64,000 bases of DNA. It comes from Cymbomonas tetramitiformis. Taxonomy: Eukaryota > Chlorophyta > Pyramimonadophyceae > Pyramimonadales > Pyramimonadaceae. The notes under the pieces are model-generated. The model searched no databases and had not been told where the DNA came from. It saw only the letters and a list, made by a program, of their open reading frames with translations. The translations under genes were made by a program, and so were the position numbers. The stretch covers positions 1 through 64,000 of the forward strand of contig LGRX02025917.1 of assembly GCA_001247695.2 (NCBI GenBank). The letters are read 5' to 3'. The first letter of the stretch is position 1. Every line of letters starts with the position of its first letter. This document shows positions 6,343-47,117 of the stretch, piece by piece.

Positions 6343-6593
6343 GCTAAATAATAAAGAAGATAAAACTATAAGCAAGGTACACACTAGCAATCCCTAGCAG
6401 GGAATAACAAGCAATCAAGCAATCAAAATTCACAACAGGAGCACCAAGAGGGTGCCAAAAAGAGAAGAGGGAAGAAAGCCTGTGATGCAAAAACAACACA
6501 GTTAGCAGTTAGTGGCGATGGCGTGGAGGAGCTTGTCGTTCAGTCTCGCGTTTTTGAAGGGTACTCGCGCGAGTTTACCAGGGCCCCTACGGT

Positions 6594-7114: not shown

Positions 7115-7685
7115 TGTATTTCGTCCTTCCCGTCAGGTTATGGGCTTGACCACTTGGTAGTGGTCGCTCATCATTCTCGCCTTCTCTGATCCCGCGACCA
7201 CCTTGCTTGCGGTACGCAACGTCGCCCCTCGCGTCGTTGATCTTCATTTGAGCACCCTTGTCCTCTACGCCTCCATCTTGACCTCGTGTGCCTCATCGAC
7301 ACCGAGAATTTCGTCGAGCACCCTGTCCTCGACCCAACATCTACGCGAGCACCTTTGTCCTCGACGATTTTACTTTGCGCTCTGGCCAGCAGCACCTCGA
7401 CTGCGGCAAAATTGGCGTATCGCACGACGTTTTTGACGTCACCACCGTTTCCCCCGCGAAAATCTACCCCGATTAGACCCTTCCATCGCTGGATTCGGTT
7501 GATTTTTTCAAAAAGTTATCTCTCCACTTGGGAACCCTATCTTTTGGTCCGCAGATTTCTGCAGCCTGATGTCGGCCATGTTTGTTGAGCTCCAACGTGC
7601 TCGCATTGTTAGGGTTTGAAATCGGTGCGGGGATTTCACTGTACGAGCCGGGTCAAATCATATATATCGTCATGGGGCGAAAGTG

Positions 7686-7758
7686 CTCCACGACGGGATT
7701 TGAACCCGTGACGTTCGCTTCTCTAGTGCGACGCTCTAACCAACTGAGCTACGCTGAG
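7686..7758 (-). tRNA. tRNA-like gene inside TRIM LTR (left copy, acceptor damaged)
   Basis: Cloverleaf of 73 nt: D arm GCTC/GAGC, anticodon loop CTAGAGA, T arm ACGGG-TTCAAAT-CCCGT, with A box TAGCTCAGTTGG and B box GGTTCAAATCC. The nominal anticodon AGA would be Ser, but there is no long variable arm, so it is not a normal tRNA-Ser. The 5' acceptor strand here is CTCAGCG, which mispairs with CGTGGAG. It probably acts as a promoter or structural module of the LTR, not in translation. Confidence 0.7.
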
Positions 7759-8308
7759 GATGATGATCCTCTCGCGCATTTCAGTGGTACTCGTACAGAT
7801 CGGACTGTTACAGATCGATGATCGAATATGCGTGTGACATCGACGACGACGTACCAACATCGCGACTGCGGGCGTCTGTCATCTTTCGATCCGTGACATA
7901 TCTCCCCTCTTTAAAGTGTCGTGACCTCACGACATTCGTGTCGCGGTTACTTTTCAGAGGTCCGACCTCAGATGTGATGACGTGGCAGCCTGCGATGAAG
8001 CTGGGTAGCAGTTCTTGGGATGCAGCCCATCGCACCGAAGGTGCATCGCAGTTCTTGGGATGCTGCCCGAATCCACGTCATCAACGCGGGTCACATCGTG
8101 CCCATGCATACGCGATCGTAGCGCAGGTCACATCACCGTGCCCGAGCATAAACGATTTTAGCGTAGGTCACATCGTGTGCCTTATGCCGTTACATCTGAG
8201 GCGGTTTCCGAACCGTCGCTTCGATACCAATGTTAGGGTTTGAAATCGGTGCGGGATTTCACTGTACGAGCCGGGTCAAATCATATATATCGTCATGGGG
8301 CGAAAGTG

Positions 8309-8381
8309 CTCCACGACGGGATTTGAACCCGTGACGTTCGCTTCTCTAGTGCGACGCTCTAACCAACTGAGCTACGCGGAG
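8309..8381 (-). tRNA. tRNA-like gene inside TRIM LTR (right copy, acceptor intact)
   Basis: Same sequence as the left copy but with a fully paired acceptor (CTCCGCG with CGTGGAG, one G-T pair). The position and anticodon loop CTAGAGA (nominal AGA) are the same. Class I geometry with a 5-nt variable loop is inconsistent with Ser identity. This is the 5' LTR of the element, so the internal pol III boxes would lie upstream of the element body. Confidence 0.72.
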
Positions 8382-19614: not shown

Positions 19615-19768
19615 GACAATCGCAGGACGACAGCGAGGTGCGTGATGCGTCATCGTCGTGCTCCGCTTTACAATGTCGCAAACGATACTGTATGCATGGA
19701 TGCGAGTCGACCCAGCATGTGTGCAGCACCCATCGATCCATGTGAGGGCGCGCGGCTCGTCTCAATTC
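19615..19768. repeat. 326-bp satellite unit, fragment between B and the 10.6-kb element
   Basis: This 154-bp piece matches the right part of the 326-bp unit seen intact at 30408-30733. Its left continuation lies before 15011. It carries the B duplication GACAA at one end and the ATTC duplication of the next element at the other. Confidence 0.8.
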
Positions 19769-20033
19769 AACACACTATTCGATGAAAATGATATTCTCAT
19801 GTGAAAATGATATTGCCTTATTTACCTCATGATAGGATTAAAAAGCCGCATTTTAACAGTCAAGAACATGCAAGTGCAGGTTGTGCATTAGATTTAATGG
19901 TTTTTATGGTACAAAATTGAGGTCAAATGCACTTTTTCGAAATCTAGGAGGAGTGAAAACACAAAGAACTTTTGACTCGGAATCTATATACACGTTATAC
20001 ACATATTATTTACATGTTTTTTTTCGTCTTGCT

Positions 20034-23000
20034 TTACGCGTCCACTTCAGGTGCTACCGCTACCGCTACGCAATTATCAAAAGCTTCGTCTTCATCGGAA
20101 TCATCCGATTCATTCAAGTCACCTAGGTCCTTGCGCGTGCGTTTGGATTGTTGTGCAAGCAAAGCGACGACTATCTGCGCGTATTGCTCGTTCGGTATAC
20201 TCCGTTCGGGGTCATTCGCATCCACATTCCATGCCAGCACTATTTCATTCTTATCGAAAGTCTCGGTAGACGGTCGGTGCCCCGGTGGCGCTGCGAAAGC
20301 TCCTGGGTGACTCGCAAGCTGCTTGCCGAGGTGCTTCTTCTTGGTGTCGGTGTGCTTTTTGGGTTGGAAATAGCGATATAGCAGCTGTTGAGTTGACGGA
20401 TAGCGCGCCTCCACCTTCACCAAGTACAACGGATCCGACCATTCGCTTCGCCTCAGTTGTACGCGGAAAGCGAACTTGTCGTTTTCAGATTCCACCGCGA
20501 GAGCCACTGCAAAGCTGCCGACTGTCATCTGGCCGTAGGTGACCTCCCACTGGGCGTTGTCCACGTACTGCTCTGCTCGCTTTTGGGCTCGACCTTGGTG
20601 TTTCCGTTTACCGTTGTACACTTCTATCGGCGCTCGATCAATTCGGCGTTGGATGCGCACCGGTATAGCGGGGACGGCGGCAGCCCCGGCAGCTTCTATC
20701 GCCAACGCGGGCGCCTCTATCAGTCGAACCAAGGTGGCATTGCGCTCGATGGCGATTTTCTCGGGATGCTGGAAGGGTATCGCGGGCGCTTGACATTCTC
20801 CACCAGCAGTTAGGTGGCGCTGTTTCTCGATGACATCCTCGCGCCAAAACTTTTCGTGCACCTCCGTGAGCTTTGTGCCCAAAATGTCCTTCAACGCCTG
20901 TAAGGTATGCTCAAGCTTTTCGATGCCTTCTTCGGTAAAAGGAATCGGCTTGATGTATCCAGGCCCCGCGACAGGGGGTGTAGAAACAAGCTTTGGCAAT
21001 GGAGTCTCGGGTAACCATTTGGGTGAAATGGAATACTGTTTGTACTGCATGCCCACTTCGCCGTGCTCGTTCTTCTTGAACTTGAAAGCCTGCTGTGCCA
21101 AAATATTGTGGCAATCGAAGACGTGACCATCAAACCAAGAGCTGAAGTCGAAGATCTTCTCGGTGTGCTCGCACGTTACACCATCCGTAAAGCATTCTTG
21201 TGCGACCTCTATCATCTCGTCGAGCGTCCAAGCTTGCTTGCGTCGTAGACGCACGGAGAAGCGTGAAAACATCTGGTCAATGTTCTCGTGCGTATGTCCC
21301 ACCAACAGAAAGTTTAGTTTCACCTTGCGAAAGACGTCCGTGTGAACCAGCCAAGCTGCGTATGCCAACATCAACTTGCTCTTGTTGGTGCTCACATTGT
21401 CAAGCTGTACATACAATACTTCCGGCATCGGGTATGAATTTTCCCCGTCCCCGTTGCGTCGATGCTCTTGAATGCGGAGGATATCCCGGTGCAAAACGTT
21501 GACAAGGAAGTTCGCATCGTCCTTGAAGTTGGCGTAGTTGAAATCCATGAAGCGGCCCACGTTCTCGATCATGCTCCCCATGTTGTGCACGTCAAGGAAG
21601 TCCTTAGAGTCCAGATGTTTAGGGATACGTCGAAAGTGTGGCAGTCGGGTGGTCCACTGCGTCATGCCATCGATGATCACCGAGGCATACTTATGCCAAG
21701 TTGTGTTCATGGCAATGCTCTTGGTCATATTCGCTTTACGACCATGTTTGTAGAACTTCTGGCGCTCCGCTCGTGCGATTGCATGATGTTTGTTGAGAGG
21801 CCCGTTGTATTGCTGCGCTGTGCAAGATACACAAATTCGGGTCAGTGAACAAATTACACAAGCATATAAACACATCACAAAGCTATTCAAGAATTTTCAC
21901 CTTTTTGAGATTTGGTTAAGCCTTCCTTCAATAACTTGAAGGACGCGCAAACATCGCAGTGAGAAAATCGGTTCACCGATGGAATCTTGAGCCAAGAGCT
22001 GCAATCTTCGTCAAATACTTTGTAGAAGTAACTGAGAGAGATCTTTTTGCTCTCCTCATTCTCACGCAAGCCCTCGATGTACTCGTCCCACAGCTCTTCG
22101 ATGGTCAAACCATCCGAAAGGTGAATCTCGGCTTTGTCAGGTTGGGGTTGTCCGTATTCGTCGGCGTATTTCTTGATCCATGCGACGACCGACTCGCGTT
22201 TCAGGGAAATCTTGTGGTTGTCCTCCTCGTACGTCAATCCATGAACAAACGTGTGTCGGCCCTCGAGCACGCGTGTCCGACAGTCGTGAAGATACCCGTA
22301 GCTGATGCCGTAAGCCATATAGTAGAACTCAAAGCACACCTGTTACAAAACAAAAGACACCGTCACTCAAAAATTATTAACAAATTATCCAAGGAAACTC
22401 ATAAGGGTTTTTATAGGTTGGCTGGATCTAAGACGCTTGGGAGACACCCCCAACACTGCACGTCTGCAGGCGGGACGGCCGTCGCGTGCTCGTCAGCACT
22501 CTCCGTCACGCCTTAAATCTGCGCAACCTACACCCTTAGTGGGAATCGAACCCACGAGTGCGAGGTTCATAGCCTAGCGCCGTACCAACTCGACCAATGT
22601 CGCGAATGTGTAGACATCGTAATAAATTTAGAAATTTATGATACAATATTCCACATTCCTGTGATGAACAATATTACACAATCTATCACAAGGTCCAAGA
22701 AAATTTCGCTCTGGCCAGAGGCCGTTCATTAGCTAATGAACGGTTCCCGCAGCCAAAGTGTCTATGTGTGAGTCGCGCTTTGGCCAGCGGCCGTTCATTA
22801 GCTAATGAACGGTTCCCGCAGCCAAAGTGTCTATGTGTGAGTCAAGCTTTGGCCAGAGGCCGTTCATTAGCTAATGAACGGTTCCCGCAGCCAAAGTGTC
22901 TATGTGTGAGTCAAGCTTTGGCCAGAGGCCGTTCATTAGCTAATGAACGGTTCCCGCAGCCAAAGTGTCTATGTGTGAGTCGCGCTTTGGCCAGAGGCCG

Positions 23001-23837
23001 TTCATTAGCTAATGAACGGTTCCCGCAGCCAAAGTGTCTATGTGTGAGTCGCGCCTTGGCCAGAGGCCGTTCATTAGCTAATGAACGGTTCCCGCAGCCA
23101 AAGTGTCTATGTGTGAGTCGCGCTTTGCCAGAGGCCGTTCATTAGCTAATGAACGAGTTCAAAAATAAACATACCTGCTTCTTGGCCAAAAAGTATTTGA
23201 AGTCGAATTTGTCTTCAGATCGAAAGCTGTTTTTTAGCAAGTCCTTCACGAAGTATTCCTTCCTATCTTTTTGCGACATGCCGAAAATGTTTTCGCGAAA
23301 AGACTTAATATCTGCCGATGAGAAAGATAGACAGCAGTGCGACTTGCAATTGCACTTAATGGTTTCTGCCATTGATATACTGTCAGCCTGCAAACGTCGC
23401 TGCTTGATACTAATTACGCCTTCATATTTCTTCTTGCGTATGTCGGATTCGTACGGTTTGCGCACAACAATCTGCTTGTTTACTTCACCGTTCAAACACC
23501 GAAGAGTGTCTTCATTAAGCAAGTCTAAAGTTGTCTCTGAAAATTCTGTATCAAGTCTGCTTTTTATCTCATTTAAGTCAATTTCGCGCAAAGCGCGTGT
23601 CCCGGAAACGCGTGAAGAATTAGAGCTAACTTCCGATCTAGACGTCAAAGGCGCGTTCCAAAGGACCATTTGCGTATTTGCGCTCGGGGCTATGCTTGGA
23701 ATTGGCTCCTGATCAAAGAAGTCAGCCCCTATTTCCATAGAATTTTCAATAATTATTTCCGGGCACGGTTTGCAGATAATCTCGCAACCCTCATCAAAAG
23801 GAATAGAAAACATTTTTTCGTCAAAATTAGCCGGCAT
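20034..23837 (-). CDS. transposase-like protein, three exons (DUF7869-like core)
   Basis: Exons are 23837-23175, 22339-21901 and 21817-20034, joined by GT-AG introns (AAGCAG|GTATGT to TAACAG; AAAAAG|GTGAAA to GCACAG) that keep phase; about 960 aa. Exon 1 has a Cys cluster CNCKSHCC. Exon 2 has an FSHCDVC motif. Exon 3 has VQLDNVSTNKSKLML followed by FLLVGHTHENIDQMFSRFS, with an earlier ASVIIDGMTQW. This is the pattern I know from large protist and algal proteins with a DUF7869-type, RNase H-like core. I infer a D-D-E/D catalytic set (IID, QLD, HEN or ID). The C-terminus is acidic. The upstream start is uncertain: the frame is open a little further without an ATG. Its place between TIRs supports a transposase role; the domain naming is from memory. 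Confidence 0.72.
22521..22605 (-). tRNA. tRNA-like sequence in transposase intron 1
   Basis: It has an A box TGGTCGAGTTGG and B box GGTTCGATTCC, a good T arm (GTGGG-TTCGATT-CCCAC) and an anticodon-like loop CTATGAA (nominal ATG). The acceptor stem is poor; only a displaced CGCGAC/GTTGCG pairing is seen. It is probably a tRNA-derived remnant (SINE or pseudogene) and not a working tRNA. Confidence 0.4.
22722..23155. repeat. tandem array of 69-bp units with a 20-bp palindrome (7 copies)
   Basis: Seven copies of CGTTCATTAGCTAATGAACG are spaced every 69 bp by a GGTTCCCGCAGCCAAAGTGT...TGGCCAGAGG spacer. The array starts about 20 bp inside the intron from the exon 1 donor of the transposase-like gene. 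Because 69 is a multiple of 3, a spurious 125-codon plus-strand ORF appears. The spacers are the same in every unit, so this is not a CRISPR array. Possible protein-binding array for the element's own factors. Confidence 0.9.
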
Positions 23838-24161
23838 TAGCTTATGAAGCCGTTTATTACGTTCTGAAAATGATATGGACTTGCGAGTCAACAGAGAATT
23901 TCTATCTTTTTGGATCGATCGATTCTCGATTTCAGCGCAAATGACACCAGGATATCTTCAAATCGTATCCTGGATCTGAACAGACCGAATCGGGAAGCGA
24001 CAGCAAATGTCATTTCTGACTAAAATTGTCATCGATATTTGACATGTCATTTTTAGCCGACAGAAATGACTTACAATATTTTGCTAAAGTTACATCACTT
24101 TTTGAAAGTTCCTTCACACACACCCCTTTCACAGTTGACAGTCAATTTCTCTCATTTCAGT
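23838..24161. promoter_or_regulatory. central intergenic region, probable bidirectional promoter
   Basis: The two genes of the 10.6-kb element diverge from here, about 320 bp between start codons. Just before the plus-strand ATG lies TTTCTCTCATTTCAG, which resembles a 3' splice site, so the plus gene may have a 5'-UTR intron. No TATA box stands out. The minus-strand reading frame is open for about 25 codons into this region, so its true start could lie here. Confidence 0.5.
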
Positions 24162-27100
24162 ATGGCGACAGCAGAAACATTTCAAGCACTGAGGGGAAAT
24201 TATGTTCTCCACCAATATCTCCGCAAGAGCTGGAGCATTGTAAGAACGCTTCAAACCGACAGTCCTGCAGACACCCTGCAGTTGATAATCCACTCAGATG
24301 ACCCGCAAGAGGAGGCTGAAGAAATGTTTTACAATTTTCCCCAAAACACCCCTACGACTGTAAATACAGACGGTACCCTTCAATCGGAAAAACGCGTAGC
24401 GTATAGTATAATTGAAGGCCAGACTCCAATTTTGTATTTCGTCATTCTTAGGAACAACAAGCTGACTATAATCGAACTGGACAGCGCAAACTTTGAGGAA
24501 GCCCTGAGCCTTCCGAAGCACACAAATCGGCTTGCGGCTTATCAAAGTTTCAAAAGGAGGGCAGAAGAAGAAGGAAAAAGCAAGGAATTCTTTCTAGCGA
24601 GCTATGTAAACGCGGCGTGGAAAGCGTCGATTACAGCTCCTTTCTGGCAAAACAAGAGGCCAGAGCCAGTGATTGATGACCTCGGCAGTAGTGGCGAAAT
24701 ACCTGTTTTACAGCCTTCGGTACGTCCCTTTCGCGCCTTGCGCCTGAACTGGGGGGGAAGGCGTTCATTAGCTAATGAACGCTTTCCGCCTCGAAACGCG
24801 CGCCTTGAGCCTGTCCGGGGCGGAAGGCGTTCATTAGCTAATGAACGCTTTCCGCCTCGAAACGCGCGCCTTGAGCCTGTACCGGGGCGGAAGGCGTTCA
24901 TTAGCTAATGAACGCTTTCCGCCTCGAAACGCGCGCCTTGAGCCTGTCCCTGGGCGGAAGGCGTTCATTAGCTAATGAACGCGTTTCGCCTCGAAACGCG
25001 CGCCTTGAGCCTGTACCGGGGCGGAAGGCGTTCATTAGCTAATGAACGCTTTCCGCCTCGAAACGCGCGCCTTGAGCCTGTACCGGGGCGGAAGGCGTTC
25101 ATTAGCTAATGAAAGCTTTCCGCCTCGAAACGCGCGCCTTGAGCCTGAACTGGGGCGGAAGGCGTTCATTAGCTAATGAACGCTTTCCGCCTCGAAACGC
25201 GCGCCTTGAGCCTGAACTGGGGGGGAAGGCGTTCATTAGCTAATGAACAGTTTCGTCTTGTCCCAGGCTGCCAGTGGCTACTACCCGATGGTCCTTACGG
25301 TAGGACCTAGAACGCTGTAGGTCCTACCATAAGGACCACTTTTTCAATAATTTTTTAAGGTATCCTATTGGTATCGTGAATGGCTACCCTCCGGTTTATG
25401 GCATATTTAGGACCTGAACTCAGTCCCCTCTGTCCCACTTGCCGAGTTTTAACCCGAGCGGGATGCTACACTACCCGTATTAGGCACGGGTAGCGTAAAA
25501 AATCGTCGAGAACTTTTCTAAAGCCAAAAATCTCTTAAAATAATAGCACATCTTTCATAATTTTTCGCCGACAGACTATGGAGGCTGAGCATGCGTCCAA
25601 TGATCCAGTAGCACCGTAGCATTATATACAATCATGTTTAGAATAGAGCACAAGTTGATAACCTCATAGCGGACATCTAGCTGCACCCCAATCAACCTGT
25701 CCCATCATTTTTAGCCAAATGTCATAAAATTTAAGAGTCAATTTTGGCTTGGGTCTGAAGTCGGGGATGCTATATTGAATGCGCACATGCCGCTTACACA
25801 CTATTACCTCGCTATTGTCGCCATATAGACACAATAATTGAATTTTCGAGCCATCTACATAGGCAGAATGTGCGATATTTTGGCGTGTATTCGTCGTTGA
25901 GCCGGACGAAGGGCATTATTATTTTGGGCGATTTAGTGCCTTTTCCAGCTTTGACAGCCAATGCTGATTCAACCACTATTTTGAGGGCCAAGATGAACTC
26001 GGATGGAATTTTTGACAAGACACTACGGAAAGAGCAGCTCGAGAACTTGACGACCCAGGTCTCGAAATTTTCGTAGGACCTATTGTGAAGCGGATAGCCG
26101 GGCTTAAATGTAGGTCCTTATGGTAGGACCTAGCTTTTTTTGCTGAAATTTGAAAAAAAACACCACCAAAGCGTGCGCAATTTAAGCACTCCAAAGGTCA
26201 CCCTATGCATACACCCACAACTTGAAATATTCATTTGACTCATAAATAGGATGGGTGATCGCACGTTGAACCAATTACGTGATGTTTATGCGAGGAAAAC
26301 ACATTTGCACGTAGGTCATTATGGTAGGACTTTGAAGTTGGGTAGTAGCCACCAGGAGAACGGCAGTGGGGCTTGCTGCCCAACGCGCCCTTCAAGGACC
26401 TGGTGGCTCCAGAGTGTATACTGGAGCGGGCGCTAATGTGGATATGTCTCAAGTGGCCACCCCCTCTGAGGCAAGGAAGGCAGCCGAGGAGGCTGCACAT
26501 GGGTGGCACGCTAAGCTGAAAGTGGAGCATGCAGCAAAGTTAGACTATGCGGAGAAAGCTGAGCTGTGCAAGAAAATCGAGATGGAGCACCGGTGGCCGA
26601 ATCCGATGTCGAAAGACGAGGCGGCGGAGCAAGGGAGTGTGTTTCGTCTCCCCATCGAATGCCTGTACCACGCGAAGGGGTACGAGGCCTGCCGGGATCA
26701 AGAGAGGGGCTGGGTGAACGAGATCAAGTCCGACAGGAAGGAGAACCCGTGGGCCCCTTTCAATGCGGGTCTCGTTGCGATCGACGATGTCAAAACCCGT
26801 GCCGAATTCTCCCTGAAAAAAGCTCCGAAGGGAGAATACAGAGGCAAGGTTTTTGGGCACCAGCACTGTTATCAAGCCACCGACGAGTGTCACGAGGAAA
26901 TCCCGTTGGAGGTAGCTTTCCAGTCCTTCGAGAGCAAGATCTACATCGGTCTCACGCCTGACATGATTCGGTTCTTAGGCGAGATGCAGAACCAGATCGA
27001 TCAGAAGCAGAAAGGCAAAGACAACACTCAGTTCATGCAAGGGCTCCGTTCGACCCTTTTCGAAAAACATGGGGTCGTGTACACCGTTTACCGAGAAGCG

Positions 27101-30100
27101 TTGATCTCCGAGTTCGTCGCCAGCGTCCCCGAGGACACCGAAGGGGGTATCCCTTATCAACCTGGGCGGTACCAGGCCGGAGGGCTGGTGGAAAAAAATG
27201 GCGAGATACGAATCAGAGCATGGATTTGCAATCCCGGATCCCGTGAAATATCCCAAGGGATTCCAGTACATCGAGAAGCGGGAGACGTTTGAGCACGAGG
27301 GAAACCCTGAGGCAGACCCTGAGGTAGAGCTGACGGTGACGGTGCTGGACGATGACATCAACGCTCACCTCGACCGGGTCACAGATTGGTACCCCGTAAT
27401 GTCTCACTTGAACCAGTCGATGGAGACGCATGTGAAGCAAGTAGCGATGTCCAAGCATTCTGTGTTCGGCAGCACGCTTATCAACGTCTACTTCATGCAC
27501 TGGACCGGTTGCCAATTTCCGGCCGCAGACGTGGGACCTCTGCGTTAGCATCATGGAGGCTTACAGAAGGTTTGACCTGAAGGGCATGAAAAACCCTTTG
27601 GCTTCGAAGACCAAAAAGCGCAAGGCCTCATCTTCGTCCGCTAGCGGACCCTCCAAGAAAGCTGGCAAAAAGGCCACCTCCAACCGACAGGTAAAATATT
27701 TTTTGCTTCTGCTTCAAACAGTGTTTTCCCTCCCACAGCATTCTTGTCCACTACCCGGTGGTACATGGGGATGTACCCAGGAGGGTCTGGGTACATAGCG
27801 ATGTACCCAAGCTGCGCGATGTGTTTCAATGACTAAATTCATTACTGTGGCATTGATACATGAAAATATATTATCTTAAGACTCTCCCCAGGGTGCCAAT
27901 ATATCGCAGGGCGAATTTTGACTCGATAGCATATCCACTCGTGACGTTCCGAACTCGGCAAACTCAACTTTTCATAGGGGCAATGTACGAGATACCGGCT
28001 GCTTTAACCGACATTTTGAGGATCAAGGCGACCTCGGGTGAAAATTTTGATAAGACACTGCGGAAAGAGCAGGTCGAGAACTTGACAACATGGGTCCTCA
28101 AATTTTCAAAGGGCCGTCGAGGAGGCAGGTAGTATAAGCAAAATTCCAGTCATTGCGGTATAATCGGCCCTTTTTCGGTAAATTCTAAGAACACATCGAA
28201 CGCCATGACGTTTGAAGCTGAAACTTTTGGATGAAACGCCCACCCAATGAATGACACTTGCTTTTTAGGGTACTACATGATGCACGAACGTTAGATTTGG
28301 CGATGCTATTGTTTAAGGAGCACATATGAGGCATCCCCATCGATGTACCCAAGGGATGTGCCCAAAAATATCGACTTTTCATTTTCTTTCCGGCGGCATA
28401 CGGCGGTAGCCGGCGTTTGAGTACACGTGATCAAATAGCCGGCATGCGCGCATCCGCTTATGAGGAATCGGTTTAGGGTATTGTCAAGACATTTGCCCAC
28501 GCGATCGGTGCACGAATGACACGGGAAAATCTGCATACGTTGGGTACATCGTGATGTACCCAAGGCCGGGTAGTGGACATTCTTTTCTATATTTTGAGAC
28601 ATGCTAAACATGTTTTTTTTTACTTACAGCTGGAAGACGAGGTGCAACTAGGAGGCGGGGACGGAGCGGGCTCGTCTAGAGGGGCAGGCATTTTGGTGGA
28701 AGAAGCTCAGTTTCTCCACAATGCCAAATCCATGGGTATGACGTTCTGGATTAACTTGAGCGGCTTGGCGGGGGTTGCGGAGTTCGACAAGGTGGACACG
28801 TATCTGCGCCTGATTATTGACAAGGAGATCTCAATAAAAGAGGGGGGCAATATGATAAGCCAGTTCAAGAAGGAACGCATGGTGCAGACGCACTTGGTGT
28901 CCGCGGCGGGATTGCAAACCTGGGACGAATTCAAGACGGAGTTCACCCCCTACTGGAGCTCCCAAGAGAAAATCGAGTCGTTGATCGGCTGCTTACAGTC
29001 CGCAAAGGGGGGAGCGCGCCGGGGGGGTCTGGGGAAGTTCCGCTAGCGATCTTCAATTACGTCGAGAACGCGCGGGCAAATCTCAAAGAAGCGCAGGCGC
29101 CAAGCGCGGCTCACATCCTAGGCTTGCAACAGATCGAGGTGAAAGTCGACATCAAACTCTATCGGGAGGCGCGGACCGACGGGCCGGAGCCTAAGGTTGC
29201 AGGAGAGGCGGGCCTGGAGGGCGACGAGCCCACACATCTTCAGGACGTGACGATGTTCCCTCGTTGGAAGATCGTCAAGGGCAGCATGGACGATTTGAAG
29301 GACATCCCGAGACTGCCCTTCACGGGGGCGGTCATCGACTGCAATTACGCCCTTGACAAGGAGAAGACTCCCGACGCGATGACCAAGGAGGAGGTGCAAC
29401 CGTTCCTGGAGTCTTTCAACGCCAAGACCACCGCCCCGGCATGGACAGTCGCTATCTTTTGCGGTTTCGTCCAACAAAACGATTTCCTGGAGGTGATTGA
29501 CAATTACTGCTCCGGCCGTGCGGAGCGATTCTTCTGGCACAAGCAGAACGTGCACATGAACCCCAACAAGTCCGTACGCTACAATGACGTTGAATGTGGC
29601 GTCCTGGGGTATTATGTAAAGAGCGATGCCGCGGGGGAGTCTTCTAAAAAGCCGGAGTGGATGTTCAACTTTGATTTTGGGGACGGTGAACGTCTGAGCC
29701 GCGCGTCACTTTTGCGCGGCTTCCCGGTTGTGCACCAGATGTACAAACGCGACGGCAAAGTCGTGAATAACCATCAGAAACCCCAAGCACTGTTGATGGA
29801 GCTGATCCAGTGCCACATGCTCGGTGACAATCCGGGCAAGGTGGATGAGAACGGCCATCCACTCAACTGGATTCTCGACGCTTGCTGCGGCGTCGGCTCG
29901 ACGTCCATGGCCGCCATGAGGTGTGGTATGAACGCGATCGGCTTCGACCACGACCAGTACATGGTCAGCTCTGCGCAGCAACGGCTGACCAATTTCAACG
30001 CCGAACCCGATCAGGATGCCGAGACGAAGCCAAAACAGAAGAGCGAACCGACGAGGAAGGGGAAGGAAGCAGCCACTGTTGAGTCGTCGGAGGACGAAGC

Positions 30101-30134
30101 AGAAGTAGAAGAGGCCGAAGAGAGTGATGAATAA
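24162..30134 (+). CDS. large element-encoded protein with C-terminal N4/N6-methyltransferase-like domain, three exons, damaged
   Basis: Exons: 24162-24719, 25267-27690 and 28630-30134, with donors TCG|GTACGT and CAG|GTAAAA and acceptors TTGTCCCAG and TTACAG. Exons 1 and 2 join in phase. About 1,130 aa if intact. The C-terminal 270 residues match the beta-type DNA methylase order: GAVIDCNYAL at the motif IV place (usually DPPY), then KPQALLMELI, then the SAM-binding ILDACCGVGSTSMAAMRCG and IGFDHDQYM. The tail is Lys/Glu-rich. The first ~850 residues I do not recognise. Damage: TE2 sits in exon 2 (25275-26351), and frames break at an A7 run (27188), near 27530, and at a G7 run (29013). TE3 lies harmlessly in intron 2. 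The altered DCNY casts doubt on catalysis. Confidence 0.65.
24761..25248. repeat. tandem array of ~67-bp units with the same 20-bp palindrome (8 copies)
   Basis: Eight copies of GTTCATTAGCTAATGAAC (one with a point change near 25109) are spaced 66-67 bp by a CCGCCTCGAAACGCGCGCCTT spacer unlike that of the left array. The array begins about 40 bp after the exon 1 donor (24720) of the plus gene, mirroring the left array in the other gene. Repeated RRSLANERF peptides read from here are artefacts of the array. Confidence 0.9.
25275..26351. mobile_element. non-autonomous TIR element TE2, 4-bp TSD CCAG
   Basis: The ends are TGGCTACTACCC and its inverse. The TSD CCAG is at 25271-25274 and 26352-26355. 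Palindromic GGTCCTTAC-GTAGGACC-like hairpins lie near both ends (25291, 25317, 26112, 26310). It is inserted 8 bp into exon 2 of the methyltransferase-like gene. It contains a ~97-bp segment (about 25978-26074) homologous to one in TE3, with a shared peptide FDKTLRKEQ(L/V)ENLTT. Confidence 0.85.
27745..28579. mobile_element. non-autonomous TIR element TE3, 4-bp TSD TTCT
   Basis: A perfect 14-bp TIR TGTCCACTACCCGG. The TSD TTCT is at 27741-27744 and 28580-28583. Subterminal hairpins are of the type GGGTACAT...ATGTACCC (27785, 28538). It lies inside intron 2 of the methyltransferase-like gene. The segment 28013-28110 matches TE2 and encodes the shared peptide FDKTLRKEQVENLTT in a 90-codon ORF (27860-28132). 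Confidence 0.85.
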
Positions 30135-30407
30135 ATTAGTAGGATTTGTCGACCGCCCTGACTGATAGTATCAGTCATGCCTCGACGGTATAGGGTGAAA
30201 AGTACTCTGCTCGTAAACATTTGAATAAAGAATGATACAGGTATGCATATTTCGGTGTTTTCATTGTACGCATACTGCACTTTTCTAGCTTGTTGCCTTT
30301 ATGTATCCCTATTTCGCGCATAAATATCACTAAACCCTGATTTTTATGAAATATATATAAATCCAAAAATGACATATGATAATGTCATTTTCATCGAATA
30401 GTGTGTT

Positions 30408-30960
30408 ATTCCGCGGTATGTTGCATGAAGAACTGCATCGAGGGACGCGACGACAAATGTAGATGGACGTGCGCCATGCGCAGATGGTGCAATATCAGAT
30501 GGAGCGCTGGCGCTGCGACACCGTCCGCGTCGAATGATGTGCGCGCGCGTGAGACTGATGCAGGTCTTTTGCAACGGAGGACAATCGCAGGACGAAAGCG
30601 AGGTGCGTGATGCGTTATCGTCGTGCTCCGCTTTACAATGTCGCAAACGATACTGCATGCTAGCATGGATGCGAGTCGACCCAGCATATGTGCAGCACCC
30701 ATCAATCCATGTGAGGGCGCGCGGCTCGTCTCAATTCCGCGGTATGTTGCATGAAGAATTGCATCGAGGGACGCGACGACAAATGTAGATGGACGTGCGC
30801 CATGCGCAGATGGTGCAATATCAGATGGAGCGCTGGCGCTGCGACACCGTCCGCGTCGAATGATGTGCGACAGCGCGTGTGAGACTGATGCAGGCCTTTT
30901 GCAACGGAGGACAACCGCAGGACGAAAGCGAGGTGCGTGATGCGTTATCGTCGTTATCGG
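30408..30960. repeat. 326-bp satellite array (two further units)
   Basis: Units start at 30408 and 30734 (ATTCCGCGGTATGTTGCATG) with a 326-bp period; the second is partial. They include GACGCGACGACAAATGTAG and CAGGACGAAAGCGAGGTGCG. The unit broken by B and by the 10.6-kb element is the same sequence, so the array gives the empty sites for both. ORFs here are repeat-borne. Confidence 0.85.
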
Positions 30961-34319: not shown

Positions 34320-37300
34320 CTAGTTCTCCGCGAGCTCGTTGAGTTCCTCAAATATTTCCTCCCCTTCGGAGGGTGGGGGTGGTGTCCCTGCGGGTTCGGG
34401 TTCGTCTCCTCGGGTGGGGTCCCCTTTGCCCTCTGTTTCTTGGTATTCTTGGTGCTCCTGCACCTCCCGCATAAGGAGCATCTCCTCTTCCTCCGTTTGT
34501 TCCATCATGGCTTTTATTTGCCTGTCTTCTTCGTCCCGGGTCTGGTTGGCTTGCTGCTGCTGGTTGGGTACCGGGTCCCGTATTGTCGTTTGTTCCTCTT
34601 CAGTTTGTTGCGCTTGGTCATGGTGCGCCTCCCATCTGAAGCTGCGCTCAGTTTTCAGTTGGTGGGTCCAGGTTGAGGGTTCTCCCTGGAGGTCGGTCAT
34701 TTTTGCTGAGAGTCTACTGTTTTCTTGGGCTTGCCGTTCACGGAGTAGTGTGGTTACGTACTTTTGTACCGCGAGTTTTCCTTTTAGCTCTCTGCTGTTC
34801 GAGTCTTCGTCTGGTATCATGGGCTTGACTTTTATTGTCTCGTTATTATCCCACGCTTCCGTGAGGGTTCCCGTGGTACAGGCTTGTTTGGCTGCCTCGT
34901 CGGCTTTTTCGTTCCCCACAATTCCCGTGTGTGCTTTGACTTTTAGCAGCGAGACAGTGTGTCCTGCTGCTACTAGTGCCTCAATGTTGACCAGTATGGC
35001 ATACAGGAGGTCTCTTTGCTGGTGGTGTTCCATGTTGTGGGGTTTCGTTCTCATGCTCTCTAGTTGTCTAATGGAGTTGGCACTGTCCGTGCAAATGGTG
35101 AGTCCGTTGCCACTTGGTGGTGGCGGGAGCGTCACCGCTTTTTGTATGGCGAGAAGTTCCGCTCTGTTCACCTCTTGGTCTTCGCCTTCCCATCGAATCA
35201 TGTGGGCCTCCCCTTCCCCGGTCCTGGGGTCCCATACCGCAGCTCCTGAGGCCCATTCTTTGCCGCCTTCTTCTGTTTCTATTTCTCTTTTGCTCCCGTC
35301 CGTGTAAAGGTACGAGGTTGCCTTGTGTGCCCTTAGAGGGGAGGGGTATGTCAATTGGGTTGGTGTGTTCCTCGGGGCTTGGTTCCTGGGGTCCTCTGTT
35401 TGGTCTCTTGTCAATTCCCATCTCCTTCCTTGGGCTCCCGGTTCGTGTTCGGGCCAGAAGTCAGTGGGGTATCTGACAACTTTTGACCTCGCTACTTTGT
35501 CCCATATCGTTTGGGCGTCATTCTGTCTTGTAAGCCTGGTGTGTAAGGTGTTGGCTTCCACCACCTGTTGTACGGTGGGGGGGTGTATGTTCCATTTGCC
35601 TCCTCTGCTTCCGGGGAGGAGTTCCCATTTGGCTGGTCCTTCTTCCACGTGGAGGTGGCTGTCCTCCCACCAAGTTTCCACTTCCGCTTGTACGTTGCAG
35701 CACTGGGGGCAGAGGTCGTTCCTCAAATGTGGCCCTGTGCTGCACATTCTTCCCATTGCATTCGTCATGTCCTTTGTCTTAATTTCCGGGAGTTCGTATC
35801 GCTGCCATGGTCTTGTGTCCACCACACAGTCTACACTGGGGGTGCGTACTTCTTGGTTTGGTTCATTCGCATCGTGTAGGTTTGCCTCCCTCATCGGCTG
35901 TTTGACAGCTGAGGTGGTGCGGACCTTACTTTGCGGGCAGGTTGTGAGTGCCCTCCTTATACAGTCTGCGGCAGTGTCTGGGTCCCCGCAGTGTGCTTGC
36001 CATCCTTCTTTGTTGGCCACTATCAGCACCCGGAGGTTCCAGTTGCACTGTTTCGCTTGTTGGTGGGTGGCACCCATCCAGTGGTCAGGGGGTAGAAATG
36101 TGAACTTGCCTTGTGGTATTTCTAATAGTTCGTGTATTAGGTGCCCCGCATGTGCATTGTAGAGCTTCCTGTACGGGGTTTTCTCATATGTCGGGTACAC
36201 CCCGACCCCGAACACCGGTTCTTGTGTGGTGGTGGCCGCTATGGCAAAGTCCAGTGCCTTTTTGAGGTCCTGTGGCGTGTATTCTGGGTTGAACTGGTAG
36301 GCTCCCAGTTTCATCCAATTTGCTGTCCAGGCCGAGCCTCTGGCCCCGAACACCTTGTCTCTGTCATACTTGGCGTAGTACGTTGTGGTGTTGTGGTGGA
36401 CATTGAGGGGTGAGGCGAACAGTTCGGTGGTAATTCCGAATGCCTGTTGTAGTGCCCTTTGCATCTGGGCAGGGAATGTCCAATGGTTTTGCAGGTTCTT
36501 TTTCCGTTCTTCCTTTTCCTCTTTGCTTGAGTACCTAATGAGGAGGTGCCCTATTTCCTCCTCGAACGTGGAGACCTGTATTTTGTGGTCCTCCCACATT
36601 TCGGTGCGTAGTGTACTCTGGTGTGGGGTTTGGTGGTGTGTGGTACCCACTGCCTGGGTGTACCTTTCGTGCAGTCTGAGAAGCTTTTCTTTCGTGAGGG
36701 TGCCTATGTATTTCCCATTCCTGTGGTAGCTGTGGGCGAGTTCCCCCTCCAGTCGTATCTGGCAGTGGTGCCCTCTGTTGTCCACAATGTCTTGTTCTGG
36801 GTTGGTTTCTGTCGGGTCCAGTGTTAGGTTCTCTGCATGTAGTGTGGGCCAGGCCTGCCCCAGGTGCGGCCTCCCGGCCAGTATTTCTTTGAGGCCTGTG
36901 GGGTGGGTCACCTGGGAGCCCCTTGCTCGCAGTCTTCTATTCAGGGTTAGGAAGGTGGTCGCACTTTGGCCCCTTCGTTTGGCTAGTTTCAGGTAGTCGG
37001 TTATGGTCTCCCTTGTACTCCAAGAGTAGGAGTCATCCCCCTCTGAGTGTCTCCACTGGGTTCTGTACTGCGTCACTAGGGAGTGTGGGTCTGTTGGGTC
37101 AACGAGTAGGGTCCTCATTGCCACAATCTCTTTCGGCTTGTCAATCGTTCGGCCTTTCTCGAAGCCTGTCTCAAGCTTTTCGGCCATGGGGTCTATTTCA
37201 TCTATCCATTTGGTTTGTGAGCGTGTGTGGAGGGGCTGGGGTTCTTCCTCTTCCTCCCCCGGTGTCGGGCCGGTATTCTCCGTTTCGTTAATCCTTGTAA

Positions 37301-40300
37301 GCGGGTGCAGGGAGAGTTGCCTGTGAATCTCTTCCCTGGGGACCAGTCTCGCCTCCCATTCCGTCATTTTTGCTCTCAGCTGCTCCGAGTCGAGGCGTGG
37401 GAGGTTAGTTCGTATTGCGTGGGAGTCCAGCGGTCCCTCCCTGTGCATGTTCCTGTATTGTTGCTTCAGTCGTCTGTTTGTAGGACTGTCATAGAAGTCC
37501 CCCGGTTTCGCTATGTCCCTCGGTTGGGCTTCACATAGGTATGGGTATAGGTGTGCCAGGCCTTTTGCTATGGCACTGCGGTCTGTGTTGAGGGTTGCAT
37601 CTGTGCATTGTTCCCTGACATTCACCTGGCTAATCGCATGTTGGCCATCTCGGGTAGTGAGGAGCGCTAGGTCCGGGAAGTGTGCAAAAAGTTTGAGGCA
37701 CGTTGTGAAATTTATCGCAGTTGGCGTGTCCTTGGGTATTGTGACCCTGGCAGTTTGGTCTGTGCACATTGCCTGCCAGTCTGGAGGCGTCGGTATGTCT
37801 CCATCAATTATTTTGCCTGCTTTCGTATTTCTTGTTGTTCCCTCCATTTCTTTGTCGGACTTCCTTCTGGTCGCCCCTTCTAGCTGTTCCATTATCTTTG
37901 GTATTGGGGTTTGGAGTTGTCTGAGCATCCCCTCCGTCCCCTGGGGCGTAATGTTGTATCTGAGTAGGGCATTGAGTTTCCTCAGTGTGTTGTGTTTTGT
38001 TTGGTGCCCCCCCCAGAGTTTGTCGAGGTCTGTACAGTTCCTGCGTGTGGTGCTGTGGTATTCTACCAGTCCTCTAGTGGACCTGCTGACATGGGACATT
38101 CTGAGTCTCGACTTTAGGTTTATTTGCCTCCAAGCCGGGCCCCGTACCGTCCCCTTGTCTTCTTCGCTGTGCATGGCCTCCAGTAGTCCGCTCCAAATCG
38201 ACTGGGCGTAGACTGCCTGGAGTGGCACCATTCCCAAGCCGTACTTTTCCTTTTCCTGTGTGGTGAAAATGTTTGGCGTTCCGTTGCGGGGCAGGCCTTG
38301 TATATTTTTTGTGGCCCCCCCTATTATTTTGTTGAATTCGTCTATTTCGCCCGCTGTGTACAGCCCTAGGTGCAATCCATATCTGAATTTCCCCAGTATT
38401 GCGGAGTGAAGGGAGTATTCCTTTTGGTCAGGTGTCAGAGGGGAGCGCAGTAGAGCTTGTATTCTGTGGTTCATCTCTTCCTTAGCGGCCTCTTTTTCCT
38501 TGTCCCACCTGCCTGTGAATGCAAGTAGTACTCCCAGGTATTTGTACGTGTCGTCTGGCTTGAGTACTTTGAAGTGGCTTAGCTTGCCGTCCAGTCCTAG
38601 CATTTTGAGGTCTTTGTGGAGTTGTTCAGGTATGGAGACCCCATTTTTTATGCCGGTTATGGCTGACTTGGTGAGGTTAATTCGGAGTTCGCTCCACTGT
38701 GAGAATGCCTGCAGTTTGTGTAGCTGAGCTCTCATGTGGTGAATCGTAGGGCACAGTATGAGTAGGTCGTCGACGAACGCCCCTGCTGTCGTCCTGAGGG
38801 GGCCTAGCCTTTCTTGTTCTGCTGCATACTTGTGTTGGTACCCATGCTCTCCCACTTCAAGCCATCTTAACAACGGTTCCTGGTATATTATGAAAAGGAG
38901 GGGACTCATGCTGTCTCCCTGGAGGAGTCCTCTTTGCACCTGTACAGTTTTGTGTGAGGTTTCCCCTCCTACTCTGGTGTTCATGGACATTGTGTCATGG
39001 CTTTGTGTACCTAGGACATCCCGCACCACCTGTGTGAGTTCGTCGGGAATTCCAAGGTACTGCATCGTTTGGAGTAGTTTGTCGTGGTCCACCGAGCCGT
39101 ACGCGTTTTCGAAGTCTACATATAGGCCATGTAGTTCTCGTCCTGAGACGTTTGCATCCTCAATCGCGTTGGTTACTCTGGTGAGTTGTCGAAGCGTGTT
39201 CCTTTTTTCCCTTGAGCCTTCCTGAGCCTGGGCTAGTATTCCTTGCGTTTCGCAGAACGTGGAGAGCATGCTTGCTATCTGTGAGGTGTACAGCTTGAAT
39301 ACCCCTTCGAGCAGGGCTATGGGTCGGTAATTTTGCTGTAAGGTGACATCCCCTTTCTTGTGGTGGAAGCAGAATGTCCCTTTTTTCCAGGTGAGAGGGA
39401 CATGCTTGCTGTTCCACATTTCCAGCATGAGTGCGTGTAGTGCATCATGGAAGTCCTCTGGCATGTACTTAAGAATTTCGTTCGGGGTCCTGGTGGGGCC
39501 TGGTGCTTTGTTGTTGTTTAGGGTGTGTACCGCTTTGCTGTAGCCCTGTCGACTTATCGTGAGGTCCAGCCCACTGGGGTCTGGTCTTGGCAACTTTATG
39601 AGGCGCTCCCTGTGAGCTGGGTCTTCCCATGGTGGAGGTTTCGAGTCGGGTGGACTTCGGTGCTCCATCCTGTATGGTGCCGAGTGGGCCATGTGGTCTG
39701 CTAGTGCGTTAGCAATGTTCCCGTGGCCTACAGCCAGGCTGCCCTCTCTGTCCTGTAGAGCCTGTATGTTCGCCGTGGGGGCATGGCCTGTTTCTTGTGC
39801 CTTGGTATATATCCTTTTGTGGTATCTTTTTTGGTTGTTCCAGTATTCCTTTACTGTTTTGTTGTTGTGTCTTTGCTTGGCTTGTTGCCAGTGCTGCTTT
39901 ACTACCTTGTGCGCTGCCGACCTTTCTTTTTTGGCCTCCTCAGTAAGCCACGACACCCACTCTTTTGCATCTGCATTGTCCCTGTCCGTTGGGCCTTTCA
40001 TTTCTCCCTCTTTCAGGCTTCTGAGGGTTGAGTGTTCCGTGTGCGGGTTTCGTAGGTGTCGTTTGGTTTGCTTGTGCTCCCGCATCTTGAGTATTGCGGC
40101 GTCCCTTTCCTTTCTGTCCTTTTTGCTCATCAGCAGGTCTTTTCCCACTCGGTTGGAGGTGCCTCCAACTATAGTAGTTGGCAGTTCGTCGTCCTGTAGC
40201 GCATATTTATTCGCCTCGGTGAGTATGTTTAGTACTGTTTCCCCTGCTCTGTCTATGGTGGCGTGTGCCACTTGCCTGTTGTCCTCCTCCCTGCATTGTG

Positions 40301-43300
40301 TGGCCATCTCTGTTATGCGTTTCAGTTCAGCGGTTCTGGCATAGTCGTGTGTCCTGAGGAGGACGCCTTGGAGTGTTTCCCTGTGTGTTTTGTTCAGGGG
40401 CGTGTCCAGCTTTACATGCCCTGGTTGGGGGTCGCGGTCCACATATGGTTCGTGGGTGCCTATGCTGTCCAACTGGAGGGTTGCTAGGCTCACCATCTCG
40501 TGGTCACTCGTATGGTGCCGGGTGAGGTGTGTGGTGTCCCCCATCTCGTATTGTGCCTGCTTGTTCCTCGGTGCAAGCCATCTGTCAATGTTCCTGTGTT
40601 TCGCCCAGTTAAGTGTGGTATCGACTGGCGGGCCTACATTGTGGAGGTCTAGCTCCTCCGCAAGTTTCGCCCATTGCTTGTCAGTTTTCGTCATTCCTCT
40701 GCCTGTGCTGGTGTTGCTCGCATTGAGGTCTCCTCCTATGACCACATGTTCGTTCTCCTTTCCCGCAGTTTTCCTGAGCAGGTTGGTTGTGTATTTGAGT
40801 ATTTTGTCCCTGGTTTTGCACTCCTCTGCCCCTGGTGGGTTGTAAATGCCTAGCACATGGTACATCACCTTTCCCGGTAGGTGCAGCACCACATGTAGGA
40901 GGTATCCCTCGAGGTGTCTCGCAGGGACTACATGGTGGTTGTGTGCGTGGCTGTAGGGGTTGCCGAGGAGTATTGCCACTCCTCCTTTCATTGCCTGTTC
41001 AGCCGTGCCTTCTGCTTTCTGCACCTCAGTTTTGGTGCCTATTGCAGTGTATTGCATGTCTCTGAATCTTCTCATTACACTGTCGTGTGCATGTTTCACT
41101 TCCGTGAGTACAATTACTTGTAGACTCTGTTGGTTTTGGCTTCTTTTGTTAATGACCTCGGCAAGGTCAAGGCAGGCATCACTTTGTCCCGCCACATTCC
41201 ATGTGAGCATGTGTAGACGGTCCTTTCCTATGTCAGTCTTTGTTGGCTCTGTGAGAGGGGTTTGGTATTCTCGGGAGTCCTGGCACGCCTCTGGTGTTTC
41301 CAGACGTGTGTCCACAAATCTTTCCCATCTTGCTGTTGGTTCGTCCTGTGTTTGCTCCCATTCTTCGTTTAGGTGGGTTTCCTGTGCTTGCTGCTCCTCA
41401 GGTGTCTGCCCGTCATTACCTGGGGGTGTTGTGGGGGCTAATCTATGTAGCCATTCCCATAGGCCTGGTTGCTTCGTAGTAGTTTTGCGTCCCCTTTCCT
41501 GGGTTTGTGGTGCCTGTTTTCCGGCCTCTAGGTTTGTGTTCAGGCCATCCGCAGGCCTCTGGGTCTCTGCCGCTTGCTGGCTTTCCACCCGCGTCCGGCT
41601 TTGCCCCTCGGCAGTGGTTATCATCTCTTTTACTGGCAGCTGTATGGACTTTCTATAGGCGGTTATCGCCGTTCTGTCGGTGGCCCCCCATTTGCTGACT
41701 GCCTCGTTGAAGTGGGTGGGCCAATGCCCCCCTGGGCATGTTTTTTGGTAGTGCATCCAAGCTTCTGCGGCCATCAGTACCCATACCCCGCAGCTGTATT
41801 GGTCCTGCGCGCTTTGGTTGCCCACATTCATCAATTCCACTGTTACTTGTTTGTTGAGTGTCTCGGCCAGGTGCTCCGTCCAGTTGGTTATTTCCGCTGT
41901 TAGCCTTTTGGTGTTGCGTGACGTTGCATTGGTTCTCCCATTCGAGGAGTCATATATCCAGAACTTCAGTTTGTCATTTCCTTTGTCTGGTCCGGCCAGC
42001 ACTGCCCTCCAGTGTTTGCCATCGCAAACCGGTATGCAGAAGCCCCGGGAGTTCCCGAGTAGCTGCAGTGCCTTCGTTGTGTGCGGTTCTCTGTTGTTAC
42101 CCGGTTTCAGTGTTTCTCTCATTGTGGCTATTACCAGGGGGGGCAGTGGGTCATCTTCATACAGTGAGTGGGCATGTTGCATTTGGAACATGTTCAGTCG
42201 GCCTTTCTTTTCGAACAGTCCCTTCGTAGTGGTGTTGTACGGGTACAATTCCGTGTGGTTCTGACTCCCCCCGCCCGTCATGTTTGTTTTCCAGCATCGG
42301 GTGTGCCGCCTCATCCTTTGCTCAATCTCCCGCATTAGTGGTCTGCCTCTTGTTGGGGTGCCTTCCTTTATCGCGGTTACTGCGTGTTCCGGTCTCCTTG
42401 TTCTAACTAGGAAGGGTTTACCGTTACGGTAAATTATCTTGAGTAATTTGTAGCCATGGGGTGGTCGTGTCCACCGTGCCGCTGCATTCCTCGCTGTGGC
42501 CCGTTTTCTTCGTGTTCTGCGGCTGCGCGTTATGTTGCTGCTGTTCGTGTCGTGTGTTCCCCACATGCGACCAAGTTTCCTACTTGTTGTTAGCGTAATC
42601 ATCAGTATAGCGAGTATCGGGGTTATGGCAAATGCAGCGTTCCATAGTGGCCTGGTAGCTTCGTGTCGTGCCCCCCTTGGGTAGTGTGGTTCAGCTCCAT
42701 GTCGTGTTGCTCTCCGGTTGTGTGGTGCTGCTCGCATTCGTGAGTTTATGGTTACAGCGTTACATTGCCCTAAATCCCTTTCTGTAACACCCCTAGCACT
42801 TTTCCCAGGGTGGGCCCCGTTTTTTATGTGTATTTTCGTGGTTGTGTAAAAATTTTGGGGCGTTTGGGCGTGTTTTCCAAAAAAGGTTGTTTTTACGTAG
42901 AGCAATTTCGGGAATTCGCTTGTGGTCGAATGTCGGCAGTTTGCTCTCATTTTTTGTGTGTGGCTGCCTCCCACTCTTCTTAGCATATTCCCAAAGTTTT
43001 TCGGCGTTCCTATCATTCTGCTGGCCTGTGTGGAGTCGGTTGTACCATTATTTGGTAGGGTTTCAGTAGGGTTGGTGCTTATATTGTGGTGGGGGCCCTT
43101 TGGTTTGCAGGGCGGGGGCTCATGTAGCTTGTCCCTGCTTGTTTGGCATAGTTTCTGGTCGGGGTGCTTGTTTCTACCCCCCTTCACCTGTTTTTGTTGC
43201 GCCCACTGCGCTTGTGTTGCCGTCGAGTTAACCGTTACAGCGTTACACTGCCCTAAAGTCCCTGTTGTAACGCCCTTGACATCTATTTCTTGGTGGGCCC

Positions 43301-46790: not shown

Positions 46791-47117
46791 ATTTCTTGCG
46801 AGAACGAGTGTGGTGTGCTGGAGGGTTGTTTTCGAGTGTGGTACGAATGTGTTTTGGAGCGTATCTTCGTCCTGCAGGTACAAAAAACCGTTAGCCTGCG
46901 TAGGGTGCGGGGCGGCAATGTGACATGTGGGGTGCGGGCGGGCCGAATCTGTATGTGTCCGTTGTGTCGTCCGCCATGGTGCCGTTAGTGTGGTGTCGTT
47001 ATTGCATCCTGCGAGCACAGTTAGTAACAAAATCGTATTTTTGAAAATTATTTTTGGGTCCGCGGCTCGGACTAGGTGGCACGCTCAGGCGGCTTCGCGA
47101 GAAGTGTCATATGTCTA

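Follow-up and report, generated by a model that had tools for sequence, protein, structure and literature searches.

A probable class II transposon family of the green alga Cymbomonas tetramitiformis that pairs a DUF7869 gene with a methylase-like gene and carries palindrome arrays in its introns

A stretch of 64,000 nucleotides from the prasinophyte green alga Cymbomonas tetramitiformis (contig LGRX02025917.1, positions 1 to 64,000; hereafter the window, contig C17040 of the 851.7 Mb genome of 25,745 contigs that was searched) contains a mobile element of 10.6 kb at positions 19,769 to 30,407. This element very probably represents a class II transposon family in which a DUF7869 transposase (gene A) is accompanied by a methylase-like accessory protein (gene B), and in which arrays of palindromes in the introns are probable sites for a dimeric protein. 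A first-pass annotation had described a complete two-gene element bounded by terminal inverted repeats (TIRs). The gene pair, its mobility and its presence in many copies are borne out, but gene B is broken in the window copy, and the annotation had overlooked the palindrome arrays and two nested elements.

Results

The two ends of the element share 23 identical bases, AACACACTATTCGATGAAAATGA, and agree at nine of the next 12 positions; the termini read AACAC..GTGTT. When up to three mismatches were allowed, a 22-mer of the TIR matched only the two ends in the window, and nothing in 100 shuffles. The insertion target is a tandem repeat of about 330 bp with few units, the element lying inside one of them with ATTC on either side. 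The adjoining unit is unoccupied: when the two flanks are joined over one ATTC, they agree with it at 116 of 119 positions. The perfect TIR cores and the 4-bp target site duplication (TSD) of the first-pass annotation were thus both found again, the latter with an empty site in the neighbouring unit; together these are the marks of a class II element.

The element is present in many copies. Forty left-end matches were scored out of 1321 candidates, and the 39 others all start at query position 60-70, the TIR itself starting at 70. Twenty contigs with such matches were taken for reading (as stretches, three of them ending early): the left TIR was present in all 20, and both ends in 10 contigs, which yielded 11 elements. 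Matching 4-bp flanks border 10 of these 11 other two-ended copies and are varied (CCGC, AGCA, CCAC, AGGG, CATG, GTGG, CGTC, GTAA, TCAT and TATC, the CGTC pair being identified by eye from printed flanks), so the search for further copies with this TIR and a 4-bp TSD succeeded. Full copies with both genes make up six of the 11; they measure 8383-8915 bp, and each has both palindrome arrays. The two nested elements are absent from these six full-length copies; their presence in the window copy accounts for its 10.6 kb. Two copies, C18914 and C13412, share 99.865% identity across 8915 bp and occupy sites with different TSDs; transposition was therefore recent. In the copies read, neither gene was met outside a TIR-bounded unit, a finding that the annotation had named as fatal to its proposal, and the full copies are TIR-bounded with 4-bp TSDs; this holds for stretches of which 10 in 20 lack a right end, the contexts of 98 genomic methylase matches lying outside the reading.

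Once spliced, gene A consists of three exons encoding 961 amino acids with no stop (Table 1; the splice sites of both genes were set by eye from the sequence). The DUF7869-like core noted earlier is confirmed by Pfam, and both of its motifs, QLDN and GHTHENID, are present. Nine relatives, when aligned, show no variation in VIIDGMTQWTTRLPHF, QLDNV and VGHTHEN.DQMFSR, and we infer that the acidic residues of VIIDG, QLDN and GHTHENID may form a D-D-E/D catalytic triad. Sequence searches of the PDB gave nothing useful for the transposase. All three exons are open in five of 10 other copies surveyed by tblastn (C7008, C13953, C23997, C19340 and C13412), a survey of open frames and not of individual exon ends, and the ratio of nonsynonymous to synonymous substitution rates (dN/dS) of exon A3 is 0.15-0.50 in 7/7 comparisons. 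Exon A3 is also about 99% identical to the window copy in seven copies (C7008, C18914, C13953, C23997, C19340, C6854 and C10414), exons A1 and A2 being 92-96% identical. This mosaic suggests that copies recombine with one another or that the family is turned over at the left end, and may partly stem from our choosing copies by their left end.

Gene B also has three exons, so that the two divergent spliced genes of the first-pass annotation are recovered, but in the window the second gene is interrupted by nested element 1 in exon B2 and shifted by three frame changes. It is open in C18914 and C13412, with a lone stop within intron B2, and gene A of C13412 is open too. The frame difference near 29010, a single base in a G-rich stretch of exon B3, has the same position in C13953 and C20215 and is absent from C18914 and C13412. 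Being found in three copies, it is either inherited or a systematic homopolymer sequencing error. According to the available part of its report, the published assembly combines nanopore and Illumina reads (PMC10675990), so lone homopolymer frame changes may be sequencing errors.

The C-terminal part of gene B has the beta-type DNA methylase layout previously described, with an atypical motif IV. PF01555 scores 25.4 bits in the window against a cut-off of 26.7, and lies above the cut-off in the relatives P0022 (33.1) and P0029 (31.9). Methylase families were matched in Pfam, NCBIfam and PHROGs (P0029 against PHROG DNA methyltransferases, E 1.4e-12), PDB sequence searches returned weak methylase matches only, and in an alignment with two phage methylases the D and Y of motif IV, a QKP stretch and motif I correspond. 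Exon B1 changes rapidly: in the seven copies where it forms a single open piece, amino-acid identity is 65-80%. The AlphaFold model of the N-terminal part is poor, with a mean predicted local distance difference test (pLDDT) score of 37. A middle stretch, VFGHQHC, looks by eye like what we take to be a ParB motif; no library supported this, a ParB-like domain having no match in Pfam, NCBIfam or PHROGs and an hhalign comparison with P1 ParB being negative.

Each gene has a palindrome array in its first intron, starting 12 and 14 nt past the assigned splice donors. The spacers of the two arrays are unrelated, and the repeated units are built around the same 20-bp perfect palindrome, CGTTCATTAGCTAATGAACG. 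All 15 sites in the window lie within the element, and none was found outside it at up to two mismatches. The outer bases of the palindrome vary yet stay paired (CCG..CGG, GCG..CGC). The exact 18-bp core occurs in 52 of 55 array A units from eight copies and in 44 of 50 array B units from seven, counts biased toward conservation because units were assigned roughly and chosen by at most three core changes; column entropy in the 20 bases flanking the core on each side is about 5-10 times that of the core. In the whole genome there are 9,729 exact sites, against none for the reversed control and 7e-4 expected by chance. Among the 50 sites listed, from five contigs, most fall into ladders of 67 or 69 bp, the exceptions being two sites near the end of contig C111 and some gaps in C70. 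In the viral contigs that were scanned, no relative of the two proteins could be confirmed, and the one viral contig with the palindrome (L001) has a single site and no array.

A second, divergent family shares this layout. The DUF7869 protein P0007 is 57% identical to P0001, a relative of gene A, and 66 of its 74 scored matches (out of 3733 genomic candidates) have no internal stop. One copy of this family was read, on contig C25363. It is 7.5 kb long with the TSD TTAT, and its ends, AACACGCTATTCGATGAAA, differ from those of the first family by one change over 19 bp. Its transposase exon 3 is 57% identical to that of the first family; upstream of it lie counterparts of exons 1 and 2 (32% and 49% identity to gene A), a divergent exon B1 (22%, E 5e-6), and a methylase that is 39% identical to P0027 and 48% to P0029 (E 3e-53). 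The intron that follows A1 contains eight units, each about 93 bp long and built around GCTCATTAGGTTAATGAGC, and the intron that follows B1 four 144-bp units around CTCATTAGGCTAATGAG: these dyads are cognate, with TCATTAG..CTAATGA arms, in unrelated spacers, and only one other inverted repeat of dyad size was found in the 4.4 kb concerned. The exact palindrome of the first family is absent from this copy even with four changes allowed. The annotation had also considered that the two genes might belong to separate host loci; in the copy read, the divergent family has the same gene pair within nearly the same TIRs.

The methylases themselves form several lineages. Among 98 matches scored of 2896 genomic candidates, six belong to the P0022 lineage at 87-100% identity and 92 to other lineages at 56-58%; 92 of the 98 have no internal stop. 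The environmental relative P0029 is 54% identical to P0026 and open over 892 amino acids. Relatives of the element's proteins come, where named, from C. tetramitiformis itself, the others being environmental sequences. One gene model, P0021 (CYMTET_20758), joins a P0007-like DUF7869 C-terminus to a methylase 62% identical to that of the window. We dropped it as proof of linkage in the second family, its methylase being only 28-31% identical to the P0007-side methylase; it looks like a chimeric or rearranged copy.

Several other features lie in and around the element (Table 1). The statement that the two genes fill the 10.6 kb stands in part only, 1.9 kb being nested elements and about 1 kb palindrome arrays, with a transfer RNA (tRNA)-like repeat in an intron. 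The nested elements are related and resemble miniature inverted-repeat transposable elements, with 4-bp TSDs and an inner stretch of 118 nt that is 78% alike. In-frame GT/AG borders can be drawn by eye around nested element 1, as for a spliced intron (introner), which we do not claim. The tRNA-like stretch is possibly a short interspersed nuclear element (SINE), about 100 bp of it missing in C13953. Elsewhere in the window, positions 34320-47084 (minus strand) hold one frame of 4254 amino acids with endonuclease, reverse transcriptase, RNase H and PCIF1_WW (E 2.5e-16) domains; PCIF1 is related to cap methylation, and this frame is, by its predicted domains, a giant non-long-terminal-repeat retrotransposon with a cap-methyltransferase-related domain. 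Two tRNA-Ser(AGA) calls lie 623 bp apart (7685-7758 and 8308-8381, minus strand), and a 699-amino-acid open frame with a zinc knuckle, gag-like, spans 4294-6393 (minus strand).

Table 1. Coordinates of the element and its parts in the window
Feature	Position	Strand	Remark
Left TIR, 23 bp perfect core	19769..19791	+	sequence comparison of both ends
Right TIR, 23 bp perfect core	30385..30407	-	sequence comparison of both ends
TSD ATTC, left	19765..19768	.	
TSD ATTC, right	30408..30411	.	
Unoccupied copy of target tandem repeat	30663..30800	.	paralogous empty site
Gene A exon 1	23175..23837	-	ATG at 23837 assumed
Gene A intron 1	22340..23174	-	
Gene A exon 2	21901..22339	-	
Gene A exon 3	20034..21817	-	including stop
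DUF7869 (PF25273)	21030..21617	-	with QLDN and GHTHENID; Pfam, E 2.1e-48
Gene B exon 1	24162..24719	+	186 amino acids
Gene B intron 1	24720..25266	+	
Gene B exon 2	25267..27690	+	split by nested element 1; frame changes near 27195 and 27510
Gene B intron 2	27691..28629	+	
Gene B exon 3	28630..30134	+	frame change near 29010
N6_N4_Mtase (PF01555)	29451..29978	+	Pfam, E 1.6e-5
Methylase motif IV position	29337..29348	+	D-C-N-Y
Methylase motif I	29877..29903	+	DACCGVGST
Array A, gene A intron 1	22707..23160	.	69-bp unit x 6.6; 7 palindrome cores GTTCATTAGCTAATGAAC
Array B, gene B intron 1	24732..25248	.	67-bp unit x 7.7; 8 palindrome cores (one with a single change)
Nested element 1, within exon B2	25275..26351	.	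TIR TGGCTACTACCC, TSD CCAG
Nested element 2, within gene B intron 2	27745..28577	.	TIR TGTCCACTACCC, TSD TTCT
tRNA-like (SINE-like) sequence, gene A intron 1	22410..22605	-	by eye; ARAGORN gave no call

Discussion

We propose that the element belongs to a cut-and-paste transposon family of this alga whose two genes are transcribed divergently. The transposase would be the product of gene A, with DUF7869 as an RNase-H-like catalytic domain, and would cut at the TIRs, leaving 4-bp duplications at varied sites. Gene B would provide a beta-type N4/N6 DNA-methylase-like accessory protein. The arrays flank what would be a shared promoter region and are most likely bound by a dimeric protein encoded by the element, which could mark or regulate the element's own DNA through self-methylation, anti-silencing or autoregulation.

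Several observations weigh against one part or another of this proposal. Gene A is broken or incomplete in five of the 10 other copies surveyed (stops, frame changes, missing parts, insertions), and dN/dS of exons A1 and A2 ranges from 0.24 to 2.0 between copies. Structure prediction did not reveal an RNase H fold in DUF7869, whose acidic motifs are conserved: the AlphaFold model of P0001 is poor, with a pLDDT of 47, and a Foldseek search with that model found no fold match at E<=0.001. In gene B, dN/dS between copies is 0.61-0.83 in segment B2a and the methylase part B3b (0.63-0.83 in B3b), 0.41-1.58 in B1, 1.0-5.7 in B2b and 1.1-2.3 in B3a. In the beta-type consensus a proline precedes the aromatic residue of motif IV; here it is missing (D-C-N/V-Y, D-G-N-Y and D-S-M-Y, against D-L-P-Y in phages), which makes methylation activity uncertain. 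The flanks of one two-ended copy, C23025, do not match. No counterpart of the middle part of gene B turned up in the copy read from the second family. Finally, palindromes are lacking from four short copies (1755, 1613, 1322 and 5214 bp) that are bordered by TIRs and matching TSDs; a fifth (5891 bp, TSD CGTC) lay outside the palindrome scan.

Sola elements produce 4-bp TSDs, as the present one does, and we judge it marginally probable that we are dealing with an ordinary Sola member (probably Sola1) with an accessory methylase of the kind already reported in algae. According to the available part of a study of Ectocarpus (PMC12477816), Sola1-1_Ec32, a Sola-1 superfamily transposon of 21.5 kb, has opposite its transposase a gene for a 1104-amino-acid protein with N4/N6 DNA methylase and ParB-like domains; green and red algal cases are cited there, and the methylase is proposed to bind and modify its own transposon. 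Both are DNA transposons with a methylase gene opposite the transposase, a likeness judged by description (TSD length, methylase gene) and not by transposase sequence. Our element, in contrast, measures 8.4-8.9 kb without nested inserts, the ParB-like domain named for Ectocarpus was undetected in it, and its intronic palindrome arrays have no mention for Ectocarpus in that part of the source. Since methylases have already been published for DNA transposons of algae, the gene pairing is not wholly new, and the earlier remark that no named superfamily shows such a pair needs qualification: Sola1-1_Ec32 has a methylase, and the 4-bp TSD also fits Sola.

Other classes agree less well. Some DIRS-like retroelements, which are likewise eukaryotic mobile elements, have a DNA-methylase-like domain; in contrast, our element has TIRs with 4-bp TSDs, and the 8 of its open frames that were compared with Pfam gave no match to a reverse transcriptase or a tyrosine recombinase. 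The view that eukaryotic transposon methylases are known mainly from DIRS-like elements proved too narrow, as they also occur in Ectocarpus Sola1 (PMC12477816) and in virus-borne Mariner elements (PMC3627910). The latter, as far as the available text goes, resemble our element in combining a transposase with a methyltransferase gene, and differ by TA duplications, an endonuclease gene, a viral location and another transposase family. Sola2 elements with Fanzor1 share 4-bp TSDs, short TIRs and an extra gene with ours; their targets are AWWT, which none of our 11 matching TSDs (ATTC included) fits, and the extra gene is a Fanzor instead of a methylase-like gene (PMC3627910, in part). Fungal Zisupton/Kyakuja, IS3EU, hAT, Plavaka and PHIS transposons, with TSDs of 2-8 bp, bear TET/JBP, again an enzyme acting on modified DNA bases, but one that removes marks instead of adding them, and have other transposases (available text of PMC12730594). 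Compared with the same text, the 4-bp TSD here contrasts with the 8 bp of KDZ/Zisupton, and 4 bp with AACAC..GTGTT termini contrasts with the 6 bp and TAYGG..CCRTA of fungal IS3EU families. In the open-licence literature we found no paper on DUF7869, no description of the present element among work on methyltransferases in DNA transposons and ParB methylases in algae, and no report of conserved intronic dyads. This kind of element is already known; the novelty lies in the place given to DUF7869 and in dyads that are conserved within introns.

We see the strongest case for a function of the dyads in the fact that the gene pair, the TIR, the TSD length and the paired intronic dyads are shared between the two families in spite of protein divergence of about half or more. 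One could argue instead that the arrays are structural, the transcribed introns forming chains of hairpins that give rise to small RNAs or affect splicing with no protein partner: the arrays begin right after the assigned donors, and, as RNA, all four of the units that were tested fold much better than their shuffles (z -4.4 to -6.2). We regard this as unlikely, because structure alone would explain neither why two arrays whose spacers are unrelated keep one 20-bp sequence nor why the TCATTAG/CTAATGA arms persist in a family with a 57% identical transposase. It is distinctly improbable that the palindromes are instead transposase sites needed for transposition (internal enhancers) and not regulatory or modification sites. 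Palindromes are typical of dimer sites and these are present in both families, but the four core-less copies keep their TIRs and matching TSDs, so the arrays are dispensable in cis for transposition. That gene B is a decaying passenger picked up by accident, as its broken state in the window, the relaxed dN/dS of many segments and the non-canonical motif IV might suggest, is very improbable given the related methylase next to the transposase within cognate TIRs in the divergent family, the rarity of internal stops among the scored genomic matches and the long open frame of P0029.

The arrays are most likely concrete candidate sites by which the element would recognise itself, through a predicted binder. 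Since the ParB-like part is missing from the second-family copy, the binder is as likely to be the product of exon B1, the methylase or the N-terminus of the transposase as that part. A tentative extension, for which we would claim less than an even chance, is that the tandem dyads, lying in the first introns to each side of a bidirectional promoter, co-evolve with an element-encoded dimeric protein (methylase or transposase N-terminus) and, like an address label, steer methylation or some other mark onto the element, in the service of anti-silencing or copy-counting. If true, this would amount to a self-recognition system conserved between element families.

DUF7869 now finds a place: it is the probable transposase of a mobile element that is bounded by TIRs and duplicates 4 bp. 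The Ectocarpus work proposed that methylases mark their own transposon and, in its available part, named no sites (PMC12477816); the arrays described here are candidate sites. With two families of matched sites and proteins, the self-marking idea becomes testable in vitro and by methylation-aware sequencing, and the nanopore reads that, by the available text, underlie the published assembly (PMC10675990) might show base modification on re-reading.

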